Assembly: GCF_003965815.1 (NCBI RefSeq)
Contig: NZ_RXOE01000006.1
Location: 1-64,000 of the forward strand
DNA from: Variovorax gossypii
Lineage (GTDB): Bacteria; Pseudomonadota; Gammaproteobacteria; Burkholderiales; Burkholderiaceae_C
Reading direction: 5' to 3'
Length of the DNA stretch: 64,000 nt
Shown here piece by piece: positions 33,754-62,741 of this stretch. The translations under genes were made by a program, and so were the position numbers. The notes under the pieces were generated by a model. It did not search any database, was not told the DNA's origin, and was given only the letters and a program-made list of their open reading frames with translations. Numbering within the stretch: position 1 is the stretch's first letter; each line of letters begins with the position of its first letter.

Positions 33754-33844
33754 CCCCCAGGCTGCGCGCACTTCGTGTCGCTTCGCCTACCCCCTTGCAG
33801 GGGGCAACACCTGCGGCCCGGCGAAGCCGGTTCCGCGGTGTTCC
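33754..33844 (+). repeat. 3'-end repeat element, copy A
   Basis: Begins 8 bases after the mosaic-protein stop with CCCCCAGGCTGCGCGC. It contains three hairpins: one around CAC-TTC-GTG, CCCCC/GGGGG (33790-33804), and a long terminal one (33806-33842) with arms AACACC-GCGG / CCGCGGTGTT enclosing CCGGC-GAA-GCCGG. Three further copies occur in the window. Confidence 0.85.
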
Positions 33845-33852
33845 GCGAAGGA

Positions 33853-33882
33853 GCCGCCCGTTTTCACGGGCGGCTTTTTTTC
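33853..33882 (+). terminator. Rho-independent terminator after the mosaic-protein gene
   Basis: Perfect 8-bp arms GCCGCCCG / CGGGCGGC with a TTTTCA loop, followed by seven T. It lies directly after repeat copy A. Confidence 0.9.
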
Positions 33883-33911
33883 TTTGTCTCGTCTGCATTG
33901 GCTGCATCCGC

Positions 33912-33934
33912 TCCATGACCTCTCACGTCATGGA
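33912..33934. promoter_or_regulatory. Dyad TCCATGAC-N7-GTCATGGA upstream of the orphan c-subunit gene
   Basis: Perfect 8-base arms lie about 85 bases before the start codon at 34018. A second, shorter dyad (TCGAGG / CCTCGA, 33967-33990) is in the leader. These suggest an operator or leader hairpin; function is unknown. Confidence 0.4.
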
Positions 33935-34017
33935 CCGTGCGCAGCCGCTCTGGGAAAGTACGTCCATCGAGGAAGCAATCAGTGCCTCGATTCACCAACC
34001 AACCAGGAGAAAACACC

Positions 34018-34257
34018 ATGACCGGCTTCAACATCCTTCCCCTCGCAGTGGCCCTGCTGATCGGCGTCGCCGCCCTCGGCTCGTGCCTCGGCATCGGACT
34101 GGTCGGCCAGAAGTTCCTGGAGAGCACCGCGCGCCAGCCCGAGCTGGTCGATACGTTGCAGACCAAGTTCTTCCTGGTGGCGGGCGTGACCGACGGGGCG
34201 TTCATCATCGCCACCGGCATCGGCCTCTGGTTCGCCACCGCAAATCCTTTTGGCTAA
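34018..34257 (+). CDS. Stand-alone paralogue of ATP synthase F0 subunit c
   Basis: 79 residues from an ATG with an AGGAGA ribosome site. Two membrane helices flank the polar loop ([15 protein letters not shown]), which matches the ARQPDL loop of AtpE. Helix 1 has the glycine-rich packing motif ([15 protein letters not shown]). Helix 2 carries an acidic residue in [10 protein letters not shown], at the position of the proton-carrying Asp61 of E. coli. The usual partners (a, b, delta, alpha, gamma, beta, epsilon) are absent; the gene stands alone between repeat copies A and B. It could form a c-ring variant, replace AtpE under some condition, or be a relic. The intact key residues argue for function. 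Confidence 0.85.
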
Positions 34258-60420: not shown

Positions 60421-60531
60421 CGGGGAAGGAGGCAAAACTGTCGAAAAGGCAACCCTCGACCATAGCAAAGCCCGCGCCCGCGGGCTGTCGCGGGCCGGTC
60501 AGCTGCCTCCCGCCGCTCTCCCGCTACTCGG

Positions 60532-61245
60532 CTACTTGTAGAAGCACACGCCCATGAGGCGGGCGCGGCAGCCGTAGTCCGTGCCGCCCTGCACCACGCG
60601 CACCGGCACGCCGGACAGCAGCAGCGAGCCGTCGTCCGCATACACCAGCGGCGAAGGCGCGGCCTTGCTGAAGGGGGCGCTGAGCGTTTCCTGCTCGACG
60701 TAGCCCAGGTACTGCCGCCGGGAGAAGTCGACCGTGTCGGCCGACTTCAGCGGCACCGCCGCATAGCGCTTGCCGTAGACGGTGCCGAAGTAGCGCAGCG
60801 ACGGCCCGGGCCGGTCGCCGTATTTCGCGTCGGTTTTGGCGAAGCCGGTCTGGATCAGGAAGGCCCGGTCTTCGGGCGTCAGGTCGGCGTCGAAAGCCAT
60901 CAGCACGTACTGGCCCTCGAAGCTCTGGTTGCGCGCCACCTTGAACTCGCCCAGCAGCGCGGGCGTGACCTTGGTGCGCCCTTCCCAGCGCAGCAGCGCC
61001 GCCACGGAGGGATCGCCGTCGAACACGTAGTGGTAGTTCTCGCCGGCGATGGCGACCTTGCGGCCGTCCTTGGCCGCGAAGAAGCTCAGCAGCCGGTCCT
61101 TGCCGTGCACCGGCTCGCCTTCGGGAGTACTGGCGCAGCCGGCCAGCGAGAGGCCGATGGCGGCGCAGGACAGCGCCAGGAGGGTGCGACGCGCGGGTGT
61201 CGACAGCGAAGGGAAGTGCACGTTTCGTCCGGGGTTCGAGTTCAT
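60532..61245 (-). CDS. Predicted lipoprotein of unknown function
   Basis: 237 residues. A signal sequence ends in the lipobox LSLAGC (Cys near residue 37), so it is lipid-anchored. No known domain is recognised. The mature part has a mixed alpha/beta pattern and two Cys near the C-terminus (YGCRARLMGVCFYK). The start at 61245 is ATG; TTG at 61248 lies just upstream. It follows the FAD oxidoreductase by 30 bases in the same direction, which may be only proximity. Confidence 0.7.
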   Translation of the reverse strand: MNSNPGRNVHFPSLSTPARRTLLALSCAAIGLSLAGCASTPEGEPVHGKDRLLSFFAAKDGRKVAIAGENYHYVFDGDPSVAALLRWEGRTKVTPALLGEFKVARNQSFEGQYVLMAFDADLTPEDRAFLIQTGFAKTDAKYGDRPGPSLRYFGTVYGKRYAAVPLKSADTVDFSRRQYLGYVEQETLSAPFSKAAPSPLVYADDGSLLLSGVPVRVVQGGTDYGCRARLMGVCFYK

Positions 61246-61275
61246 CAAGCCCCGGACTCTAGCGCGCCGCCGCGC

Positions 61276-62622
61276 TCAGCGGTCGAGGTCGACGCCGTCG
61301 GCGAGCAGCTTTTCCTGCAGCGCCGGAACGTCCACCTTCGCGAAGCTGCCGCCGCCCAGCGACGCCGCCGCCGTGCCCGCGGCCTGCCCCATGACGAAGC
61401 AGCCGCCGCTCGCGCGCGCGGCCGACTGGCCCTCGTGCGTCATCGACGCGCAGCGCCCGGCCACCAGCAGGTTGTCGAGCGCCTGCGGCACCAGCATGCG
61501 CCACGGCAGGTGGTTGTAGGCGTTGGCTTCGTCGCGCGGGAAGGCCCACTCGATGCGGCCGTCGGCGTGCATTTCCATGGGCCAGGCGTTCAGGCCGATG
61601 TTGTCGTCGAACTTCGCCGAGCCCAGGATGTCCTCGCGCCCGAGCGCGTACAGGCCCTGGATGCGCCGCGTCTCGCGGATGCCGACCTGCGGCGCGATCT
61701 CCACGATGGCCGACTGCGCGAAGCCCGGCACCTCGGCCTTCAGGAACCTGAAGTACTCCGTGATCTGGCGGCGGCCCTCGAGCTCGCCCTCGGTGAGCTC
61801 GCGCGCGTCGACGCCGTTCATCGCCCGGCCCTGCGAATTGCGGATCTGCGTGACGTTGGCGCGCCACTCGCGCGGGTCCTTGTTGGGCCGCAGGATCGCA
61901 CCCTCGCGCGGGAACTTGTAGACGCCCGGCTTCTGCTGCTCGGCGCGAGCCATGAAGTCGTTGATGGCCTTGAACTCTCCCACCGCCTCCAGCGCAGCCG
62001 GCGCGTCGACCTGGCCGATGCGGAACATGGTGGTCGGGAAGAGTCCGCTGCCGTGGCCGTCGCCCACCTCGAAGGGCACGCCCGCGAAGGCGGCCACGTC
62101 GGCATCGCCGCTGGCGTCGATGAAGGCGTTGGCGCGAATGGCCTGGCGGCCCGACTTGGTCTCGACCACCAGTGCTGCGATGCGCTTGCCGTCGAGCACG
62201 ACGGCGGCCGCAAGCGCGTGGAACAGCAGCTTCACGCCCGCTTCGCCGAGCAGCTGGTCGGCGGCGAGCTTGTAGGCCGAGGTGTCGTAGGAGCGCACGC
62301 AGATGCGCCCGCCCATGCCGTTCTGCGGCTGGTTCATGCCGTTGAGCGCGGCGATGCGGTCGATGAGTTCGTCGACCACGCCGCGCACCAGCTGCGTCAT
62401 CTCGCCTTTGCGCTTGCCGTACAGGCCCGCGAAATTGGTGACGCCGCCGGCCGTACCCATGCCGCCGAGAAAACCGTAGCGCTCCACCAGCAGCGTGTTG
62501 GCGCCATGGCGCGCGGCGCTCACCGCGGCCGCAATGCCGGCGGGGCCGCCGCCGACCACCACCACGTCGTACTCGCCGAACACCGGCAGCGTGCGCGCCG
62601 GTTCATGCAATGTGGAAGTCAT
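61276..62622 (-). CDS. FAD-dependent oxidoreductase (FAD_oxidored type)
   Basis: 448 residues. FAD motif VVVGGGPAGIAAAVSAARHGA near the N-terminus, VERYGFLGGMGTAGGVTNF as the second conserved segment, and FIDASGDADVAAFAG with VGIRETRRIQG further on. The end AARASGGCFVMGQAAGTAAA is typical of this family, whose members often act on sugar-like or ring compounds or have unknown substrates. It follows the Bug receptor and repeat copy D in the same direction. Confidence 0.8.
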   Translation of the reverse strand: MTSTLHEPARTLPVFGEYDVVVVGGGPAGIAAAVSAARHGANTLLVERYGFLGGMGTAGGVTNFAGLYGKRKGEMTQLVRGVVDELIDRIAALNGMNQPQNGMGGRICVRSYDTSAYKLAADQLLGEAGVKLLFHALAAAVVLDGKRIAALVVETKSGRQAIRANAFIDASGDADVAAFAGVPFEVGDGHGSGLFPTTMFRIGQVDAPAALEAVGEFKAINDFMARAEQQKPGVYKFPREGAILRPNKDPREWRANVTQIRNSQGRAMNGVDARELTEGELEGRRQITEYFRFLKAEVPGFAQSAIVEIAPQVGIRETRRIQGLYALGREDILGSAKFDDNIGLNAWPMEMHADGRIEWAFPRDEANAYNHLPWRMLVPQALDNLLVAGRCASMTHEGQSAARASGGCFVMGQAAGTAAASLGGGSFAKVDVPALQEKLLADGVDLDR

Positions 62623-62648
62623 TCAAATAGATCCATGGATGTCTGTTC

Positions 62649-62741
62649 GGGAAACACCACGGATCCGGCTTTGCCGGTCCGTCGGTGTTGCCCCCTGCAA
62701 GGGGGTTGGCGAAGCGACACGAAGTGCGCGAAGCCTGGGGG
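62649..62741 (-). repeat. 3'-end repeat element, copy D
   Basis: Minus-strand copy, 5 bases after the stop of the Bug receptor gene at 62747. Hairpin arms are AACACC-ACGG / CCGTGGTGTT: again both sides are changed compared with copy A. Orientation relative to the preceding gene is the same as in copies A-C. Confidence 0.85.

Follow-up and report, generated by a model that had tools for sequence, protein, structure and literature searches.

BRE, the closest described counterpart of the element considered here, is a GC-rich repeat of about 90 bp (75–91 bp at full length in Bordetella) that is usually intergenic and stands in tandem at some loci (Hot et al. 2011, PMC3110155; here and below, published repeats are described from portions of the sources). 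It occurs in Alcaligenaceae and in Comamonadaceae (Polaromonas, Rhodoferax, Acidovorax, Delftia and Verminephrobacter), reaches up to 29 copies per genome at more than 70% identity and includes some copies within coding sequences; its loci are partly conserved, past or present mobility has been suggested, and its function was left open (PMC3110155). Here we describe a three-hairpin element of about 92 nt that is present in four copies (A to D) in a 64,000-nt stretch of the Variovorax gossypii genome (NCBI RefSeq assembly GCF_003965815.1, contig NZ_RXOE01000006.1, positions 1–64,000 of the forward strand; hereafter the window), and that is probably the Comamonadaceae form of BRE, as compared by description. 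Size, GC content, mostly intergenic position and tandem habit match; the host range is alike in that the element is found in Comamonadaceae, while its second carrier family (f4) is Alcaligenaceae only by guess. No lexA gene, a published BRE locus, was seen beside the second-family copies in a regular-expression search, and a literature search for the full BRE name returned PMC3110155 alone.

Other described repeats share some of these features. The Bor repeats of Bordetellae are GC-rich palindromes of 26–30 bp near coding regions that resemble E. coli REP and for which mRNA stabilisation has been suggested; the two Bor-1 models (117 nt, 196 sequences; 93 nt, 128 sequences) are intergenic and predicted to be structured (PMC1590033, PMC2267715). 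The element is perhaps related to them, again by description, with the difference that Bor is not described there as occurring in Comamonadaceae or as keeping a stop-codon register. The BRE and Bor descriptions, as far as considered, mention no docking at stop codons in the sense direction, no filled and empty junctions, and no three-hairpin fold with covariation. REP sequences are numerous small extragenic palindromes, some near stop codons, with proposed mRNA-stabilising and translational roles (PMC2817692, PMC3733652, PMC12306157); 446 of the 4,072 predicted in E. coli lie within 15 nt of a stop (PMC12306157). Hairpin 3 of our element (37 nt) is REP-sized by itself, but the element as a whole comprises three hairpins in 92 nt and shows no link to Y1_Tnp genes. 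VeiPR1, an abundant palindromic repeat of Verminephrobacter that was called unique to that species (PMC3975124), is alike in being such a repeat in a Comamonadaceae genome; it was compared by description only. A literature search for a named Comamonadaceae element yielded VeiPR1, Bor and BRE only, and the portions of PMC2755013 and PMC9045143 considered contained nothing relevant to the element.

A sequence-only reading of the window had known of no named family for this repeat. That stands for Rfam: a search with Rfam 15 gave no gathering-score match in the window or at 14 further loci, a permissive scan of five loci gave sub-threshold matches only, and a known Rfam RNA was rejected on these grounds. 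It does not stand for published repeats, since BRE and Bor, by their descriptions, are probably of the same kind. An integron attC site was set aside by inspection. If the element is indeed BRE, a published but unexplained repeat gains an anatomy, a placement rule, pairs of filled and empty alleles, and a family-wide range.

Placement at stop codons

The element is a non-coding Burkholderiales repeat with three hairpins; its copies are dispersed and stand exactly at stop codons, mostly in the sense direction. The four copies reported by the sequence-only reading are real and lie where it had placed them, as established by a covariance-model search of the window: copy A at 33753–33844 (plus strand, 92-nt core, 117.0 bits, also supported by its fold), copy B at 34257–34345 (plus, 107.4 bits), copy C at 35732–35824 (plus, 88.2 bits) and copy D at 62651–62742 (minus, 117.9 bits). 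The model (R1) was trained on A, B and D and recovers these as its own training rows, so that C is the independent match; without filters, the best of the remaining window matches scored 16 bits, against 88–118 for the four copies. The CCCCC that opens each copy begins 8, 0, 5 and 5 nt behind the stop codon in A, B, C and D, respectively, within the 0–8 bases noted before.

In the whole genome (6.30 Mb, 15 contigs) model R1 gave 136 matches at E ≤ 1. Two of them are antisense echoes of strong copies, leaving at least 134 copies, a few of them weak or truncated; the count is a lower bound, as 150 of the 824 first-look candidates were scored. Copies are about 92 nt long, with a GC fraction mostly of 0.66–0.78. 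Gene context was read with a home-made gene caller for the 134 copies (locus L176, a duplicate of L027, was excluded). A same-strand gene precedes 117 copies and one more was called inside a gene (133 of 134 were not); the overall orientation ratio is 118:16. By type of gap, 73 copies lie between tandem genes and 44 between convergent ones, 12 are reversed between tandem genes, and four are between divergent genes. The start of 112 of the 134 falls between –8 and +13 nt from a same-strand stop codon, and the other five of the 117 start at 48–249 nt. When the 117 elements were placed at random within their present gaps, 42 came to lie within 13 nt, with a maximum of 59 in 20,000 simulations, compared to the observed 112. 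Thus, the sense orientation and the tie to stop codons hold genome-wide, and neither random orientation nor the lack of a link to stop codons was found.

A similar placement was observed in other genomes. Copies from other genera started –8 to 15 nt from a same-strand stop in 23 of 29 cases, and the best hits from the same genus in 28 of 36; the eight exceptions among the latter were four later units of tandem arrays and four reversed copies. These counts omit five of the 70 aligned rows (from L167, L168 and L171). In the second family, 42 arrays with 61 copies were read from three genomes; 34 of the arrays stand behind a same-strand gene, and 23 of these start within –8 to 15 nt of its stop. 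Several of the exceptions, by eye, have in front of them a further repeat-like stretch that the model did not call.

Stop codon usage ahead of the element is shifted. The 112 stops comprise 52 TGA, 31 TAG and 29 TAA, compared to 256, 37 and 23 among 316 control gene ends from the same loci (p = 1e-11), and the difference holds against each control gap-size class and against convergent ends (p from 1e-12 to 0.005). Conserved GGCTC-like bases ahead of the CCCCC complete a TAG or TGA in many rows. This, together with the excess of TAG and TAA, suggests that the 5′ edge of the element often provides the stop codon itself.

Genes for transporter binding proteins are enriched in front of the element. 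Pfam matches of the 112 upstream proteins included seven TctC, six Peripla_BP_6, four SBP_bac_5 and two SBP_bac_3, whereas 110 control proteins from the same loci gave three TctC matches and at most one each for Peripla_BP_6, SBP_bac_5 and SBP_bac_3. (The 110 were scanned out of 316, controls shorter than 60 aa were excluded, and for upstream proteins above 600 aa the C-terminal 600 residues were used.) With 108 TctC and 44 Peripla_BP_6 matches above the cut-off in the whole genome, the two families together make up 13 of the 112 upstream genes against about three expected (P from 1e-5 to 4e-5 for an assumed total of 5,200–5,950 genes). This enrichment resembles the textbook case in which a REP separates a binding-protein gene from that of its permease.

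Hairpin covariation and filled or empty junctions

All four window copies carry three hairpins in an identical order, as the sequence-only reading had described. Hairpins 1, 2 and 3 lie at 33760–33787, 33790–33804 and 33806–33842 in copy A, at 35739–35768, 35771–35784 and 35786–35822 in copy C, and at 62735–62708, 62705–62691 and 62689–62653 on the minus strand in copy D; hairpin 3 of copy B is at 34307–34343. In B the spacer between hairpins 1 and 2 is shorter by 3 nt, and in C hairpin 1 has an extra pair, with one inserted base per arm. The inner arms of hairpin 3 read GCGG/CCGC in A and B, GAGG/CCTC in C and ACGG/CCGT in D, again as noted before. Folding is better than for dinucleotide shuffles (z-scores of –2.9, –3.0, –3.6 and –4.5, with 1, 0, 0 and 0 of 200 shuffles as good).

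Pairing is maintained across many copies. Among 124 copies from the own genome (the weakest ten entered the context count and are absent from this alignment) 96.7% of pair cells are standard, compared to 91.9% after shuffling, and 20 of the 30 pairs have changed on both sides. For a tree-based analysis 226 of 240 aligned rows were used, after removal of duplicates and of rows with fewer than 24 standard pairs. Concerted changes from one Watson–Crick pair to another numbered 70 over 20 of the 30 pairs, while the null, a home-made imitation of R-scape in which the same substitutions were moved to random columns, gave a mean of 3.1 and a maximum of 9 in 300 runs. On the 226-copy tree significant covariation was seen in five pairs (four when columns were rate-weighted), all of them in the structure and none outside; the tree-based null left two significant pairs in the own-genome set alone and four in the wider set, likewise all in the structure. 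Covariation was therefore looked for and found, and it exceeds a phylogeny-aware null.

Four copies from other loci (L105:1897–1986, L109:1835–1903, L162:1895–1959 and L163:1844–1919) keep hairpins 1 and 2 by eye, and in them another GC-rich hairpin (GGCCGGCCGC...GCGGCC-like) replaces hairpin 3, as if a module had been swapped.

We searched the DNA of junctions C and D in 81 genus genomes each and read the best 30 loci for each, a choice that favours query-like loci, so that the shares of filled and empty junctions are not frequencies. At junction C, 18 of the 30 were filled, all re-found by the model, nine lacked the element and three held other inserts. Among the nine, seven have an overlapping stop and next start, as in AAGTGAGC, and two have 16 nt from stop to ATG. 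At junction D, 13 were filled, all again re-found by the model, and 17 were empty, every one with an overlap of TGATG or TAATG type. The length of the upstream protein is unchanged in the junctions printed. One genome, 97% identical at the upstream flank of D (93% downstream), carries the element at C but not at D. On the gene tree, presence at D changes four times, compared to 10.0 for shuffled labels with a minimum of 6. Thus, gain or loss of the element takes place exactly at the stop codon, in clades at D and patchily at C. No flanking direct repeat was seen at the C and D junctions by eye; no program-based search was made.

At the substrate-binding-protein/permease junction of C in relatives, loci L224 and L233 hold an unrelated stretch of about 450–500 nt, and L227 holds a different palindromic insert. 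The C junction seems to accept several kinds of insert.

Possible roles and origins

The interpretation offered by the sequence-only reading is partly supported: this is a multi-copy 3′-end element in the sense direction, with covariation. Its most likely role, to which we give about an even chance, is that of a REP-like barrier at the 3′ end of the upstream message and of an operon spacer. Lying mostly 3–12 nt behind the stop, the element would place the beginning of hairpin 1 some 10–20 nt behind it. Such a distance is near the leading edge of a terminating ribosome, which would leave little exposed single-stranded RNA between the ribosome and the hairpins. In the transcript, the three stable hairpins would block 3′-to-5′ exonucleases at the end of the upstream message; the change from a touching or overlapping junction to a spaced one would separate that message from the next gene; and the upstream gene, more commonly than expected one for a periplasmic binding protein, could be expressed above its neighbour. 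Both the making of new copies and the correction of one arm by the other are probably DNA-level processes. An element acting on mRNA in this way would be a portable tuner of neighbouring operon genes.

A number of observations weigh against this role. Sixteen own-genome copies lack a preceding same-strand gene, and 12 of the sixteen stand reversed between tandem genes, several of them intact. As measured, 19 of the 42 second-family arrays do not lie –8 to 15 nt from a same-strand stop, and a match on a Methylibium plasmid falls within an annotated transposase gene. The enrichment of binding-protein genes rests on an assumed gene total, and its Pfam controls come from the same neighbourhoods. 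Presence at C changes nine times on the gene tree (other inserts being scored as not filled), compared to 9.6 for shuffled labels; being no more clade-like than these, it indicates that single copies are not strongly kept. Finally, single changes to G–U number 40 against 32 to A–C (p = 0.41), and G–U cells 56 against 39 A–C cells (p = 0.10; four weak rows were excluded from the count). An RNA read from the sense strand is expected to prefer G–U, and the near equality therefore does not separate RNA selection from DNA-level arm correction. The earlier argument that the pair swaps show selection on structure is thus unsupported as stated, the near equality of G–U and A–C changes fitting a DNA-level palindrome, and the rule that covariation means RNA is weakened by the same comparison. 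Template switching, gene conversion between copies or very stringent selection could each account for concerted changes with few wobble intermediates.

A possible, if doubtful, alternative is that the element is a selfish or passively copied palindrome that spreads as DNA. Its position and direction would then mark only the least harmful insertion (right at a stop, bringing its own stop codon, and in the direction that is tolerated), with template switching or gene conversion preserving the complementarity of its arms. This reading covers nearly everything (the patchy presence, the tandem arrays, the intact reversed copies, and the concerted arm changes with no clear G–U excess), but neither how strong the direction bias is nor which genes are chosen. 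The bias is strong also in convergent pairs, where a reversed copy would be equally non-coding; the element is enriched behind substrate-binding-protein genes and present in 109 of the 141 genera sampled; and neither a transposase link (for Y1_Tnp, p = 0.125) nor, by eye, a flanking direct repeat at the two junctions was seen. If the element does not act on mRNA, it is a clean case of covariation without RNA selection and a caution for structured-RNA discovery.

We tentatively consider, as an idea with a minority of the weight, that the element is a mobile RNA part that rewires operons: bringing its own stop and three hairpins, and gained or lost at touching or overlapping junctions, it would turn a coupled pair of genes into two independent messages, in a large part of one Burkholderiales family and in some members of a second, with no known transposase.

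By analogy with REP, the hairpins might act as a translational brake, stalling the terminating ribosome when less than 16 nt behind the stop and lowering output of the upstream gene; we find this unlikely. Although 112 of the 117 same-strand distances fall in that range, and ribosome stalling by stop-proximal E. coli REPs is mentioned, with reference to earlier work, in PMC12306157, there are 7 nt of the element ahead of its first hairpin, which is also not the strongest of the three. High-output binding-protein genes would also be odd targets for a brake. Transcription termination, one of the 3′-end roles first proposed, or a mark of Rho-dependent ends is very improbable, despite elements being commoner between convergent genes than control ends are (41:71 versus 62:237, p = 0.0013): the element alignment has no T run behind hairpin 3, separate intrinsic terminators follow within 100 nt at about the control rate (8 of 112 copies versus 23 of 299 control gene ends), leading us to reject an intrinsic terminator, and 73 of the 134 copies lie between tandem genes, some in one apparent operon.

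We also considered a REP driven by a RAYT-like protein. Of 25 genus genomes, 23 have a single Y1_Tnp (RAYT-like) gene; that of the own genome is at locus L166 (G000:C7:729369–729704). No copy of the element was detected in the 19.9-kb stretch around it (E ≤ 1) or in 13 short Y1_Tnp loci (E < 0.01), and three of eight long Y1_Tnp stretches of relatives (L167, L168 and L171) hold one or two copies at a distance of at least about 5 kb. Over 299 family genomes Y1_Tnp and the element are unlinked (counts of 154/46/68/31, p = 0.125). A RAYT-driven REP was rejected on distance and co-occurrence. RAYT-linked REPs are short hairpins (20–40 bp) that bear a constant GTAG or CGTC tag. In our element the pairs at the foot of hairpin 3 are variable, and the letters CGTC occur in the GGCGTC that closes the second-family form; no formal tag search was made.

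Host range and surroundings of the window copies

The element was found in all 25 genus genomes, with 16 to at least about 105 copies per genome, and in none of 16 genomes of other families in the same genus-level search with model R1. At the family level, with 14 candidates scored per genome, 200 of 299 genomes and 109 of 141 genera carry it. The exact 29-nt 5′ part occurs, among the matches listed, mostly in Variovorax records and in a few of Curvibacter, Pseudacidovorax and Hylemonella. Order-wide, nine of 250 genomes matched the first model; five belong to the own family, three to f4 and one to f30. Model R2, made of hairpins 2 and 3 from 43 chosen sequences, found 13 genomes among 399, of which nine belong to the own family, three to f4 and one to f20. 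The f4 loci that were read are laid out as CCCCC, a hairpin 1 of variable sequence, a CCCCC/GGGGG hairpin 2 and then hairpin 3, which keeps the apical CCGGC/GCCGG; their matches to model R1 span 73–106 nt, with a different hairpin 1. The f30 genome (G551) gave five matches to model R1, and the single locus read there, L414, fits hairpins 1 and 2 and hardly hairpin 3.

Copies also stand in tandem, as at C6:14783/14881 in the own genome and in L175, with four copies at a 132-nt period. The second family has arrays spaced mostly by 83–124 nt. Four of its loci (L454, L457, L470 and L485) hold two to four copies at a spacing of about 112–124 nt and may be variable-number tandem repeats.

Plasmids carry the element as well. 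A plasmid search with copy A matched seven records of Variovorax or Comamonadaceae, five of which were read. On one, the genes for the small and large permeases of a TRAP transporter flank the element, and on two others it lies 4 nt and 36 nt, respectively, behind a gene of the dihydrodipicolinate synthase family; the remaining two records have no gene table at that place. Searching with an f4 copy gave three weaker matches, two of which were read. One is the Methylibium match inside a transposase gene, an exception to the placement rule. A Comamonas plasmid has a partial match between two arsenic-related genes, with its start about 50 nt behind the stop.

In the window, copy A follows the TAG stop (33743–33745, plus strand) of a gene for a 1586-aa protein with matches to PKD, laminin-G and ricin-B-type lectin domains. 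Behind it, and separate from the element, is an intrinsic-terminator-like hairpin with a T run (33850–33881, plus). The first base of copy B is the last base of the TAA stop (34255–34257) of a plus-strand gene at 34018–34257 that encodes a 79-aa protein like ATP synthase subunit c (Pfam PF00137). That gene sits among unrelated neighbours.

Copy C lies between a substrate-binding-protein gene (Peripla_BP_6, 34522–35727, plus), whose TAG at 35725–35727 is 5 nt ahead of the CCCCC, and a permease gene (BPD_transp_2, plus) called at 35887–36780; for the latter, the in-frame ATG at 35860 is the one that aligns with the start region of relatives. Copy D has a similar setting on the minus strand. A TctC-type substrate-binding-protein gene (62747–63724) ends in a TGA at 62749–62747, 5 nt ahead of the CCCCC, and a gene for an FAD-dependent oxidoreductase follows, called at 61276–62583, with an in-frame ATG at 62622 that aligns with relatives. 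In relatives that lack the element at D, the oxidoreductase gene overlaps the TctC stop.

Elsewhere in the window, degenerate direct repeats, partly 42 nt apart, occupy 1037–1573 inside a long open reading frame on the minus strand at the start of the window, and another long minus-strand frame, likewise rich in repeats, lies at 43045–46611; both frames are, by guess, surface-protein-like.

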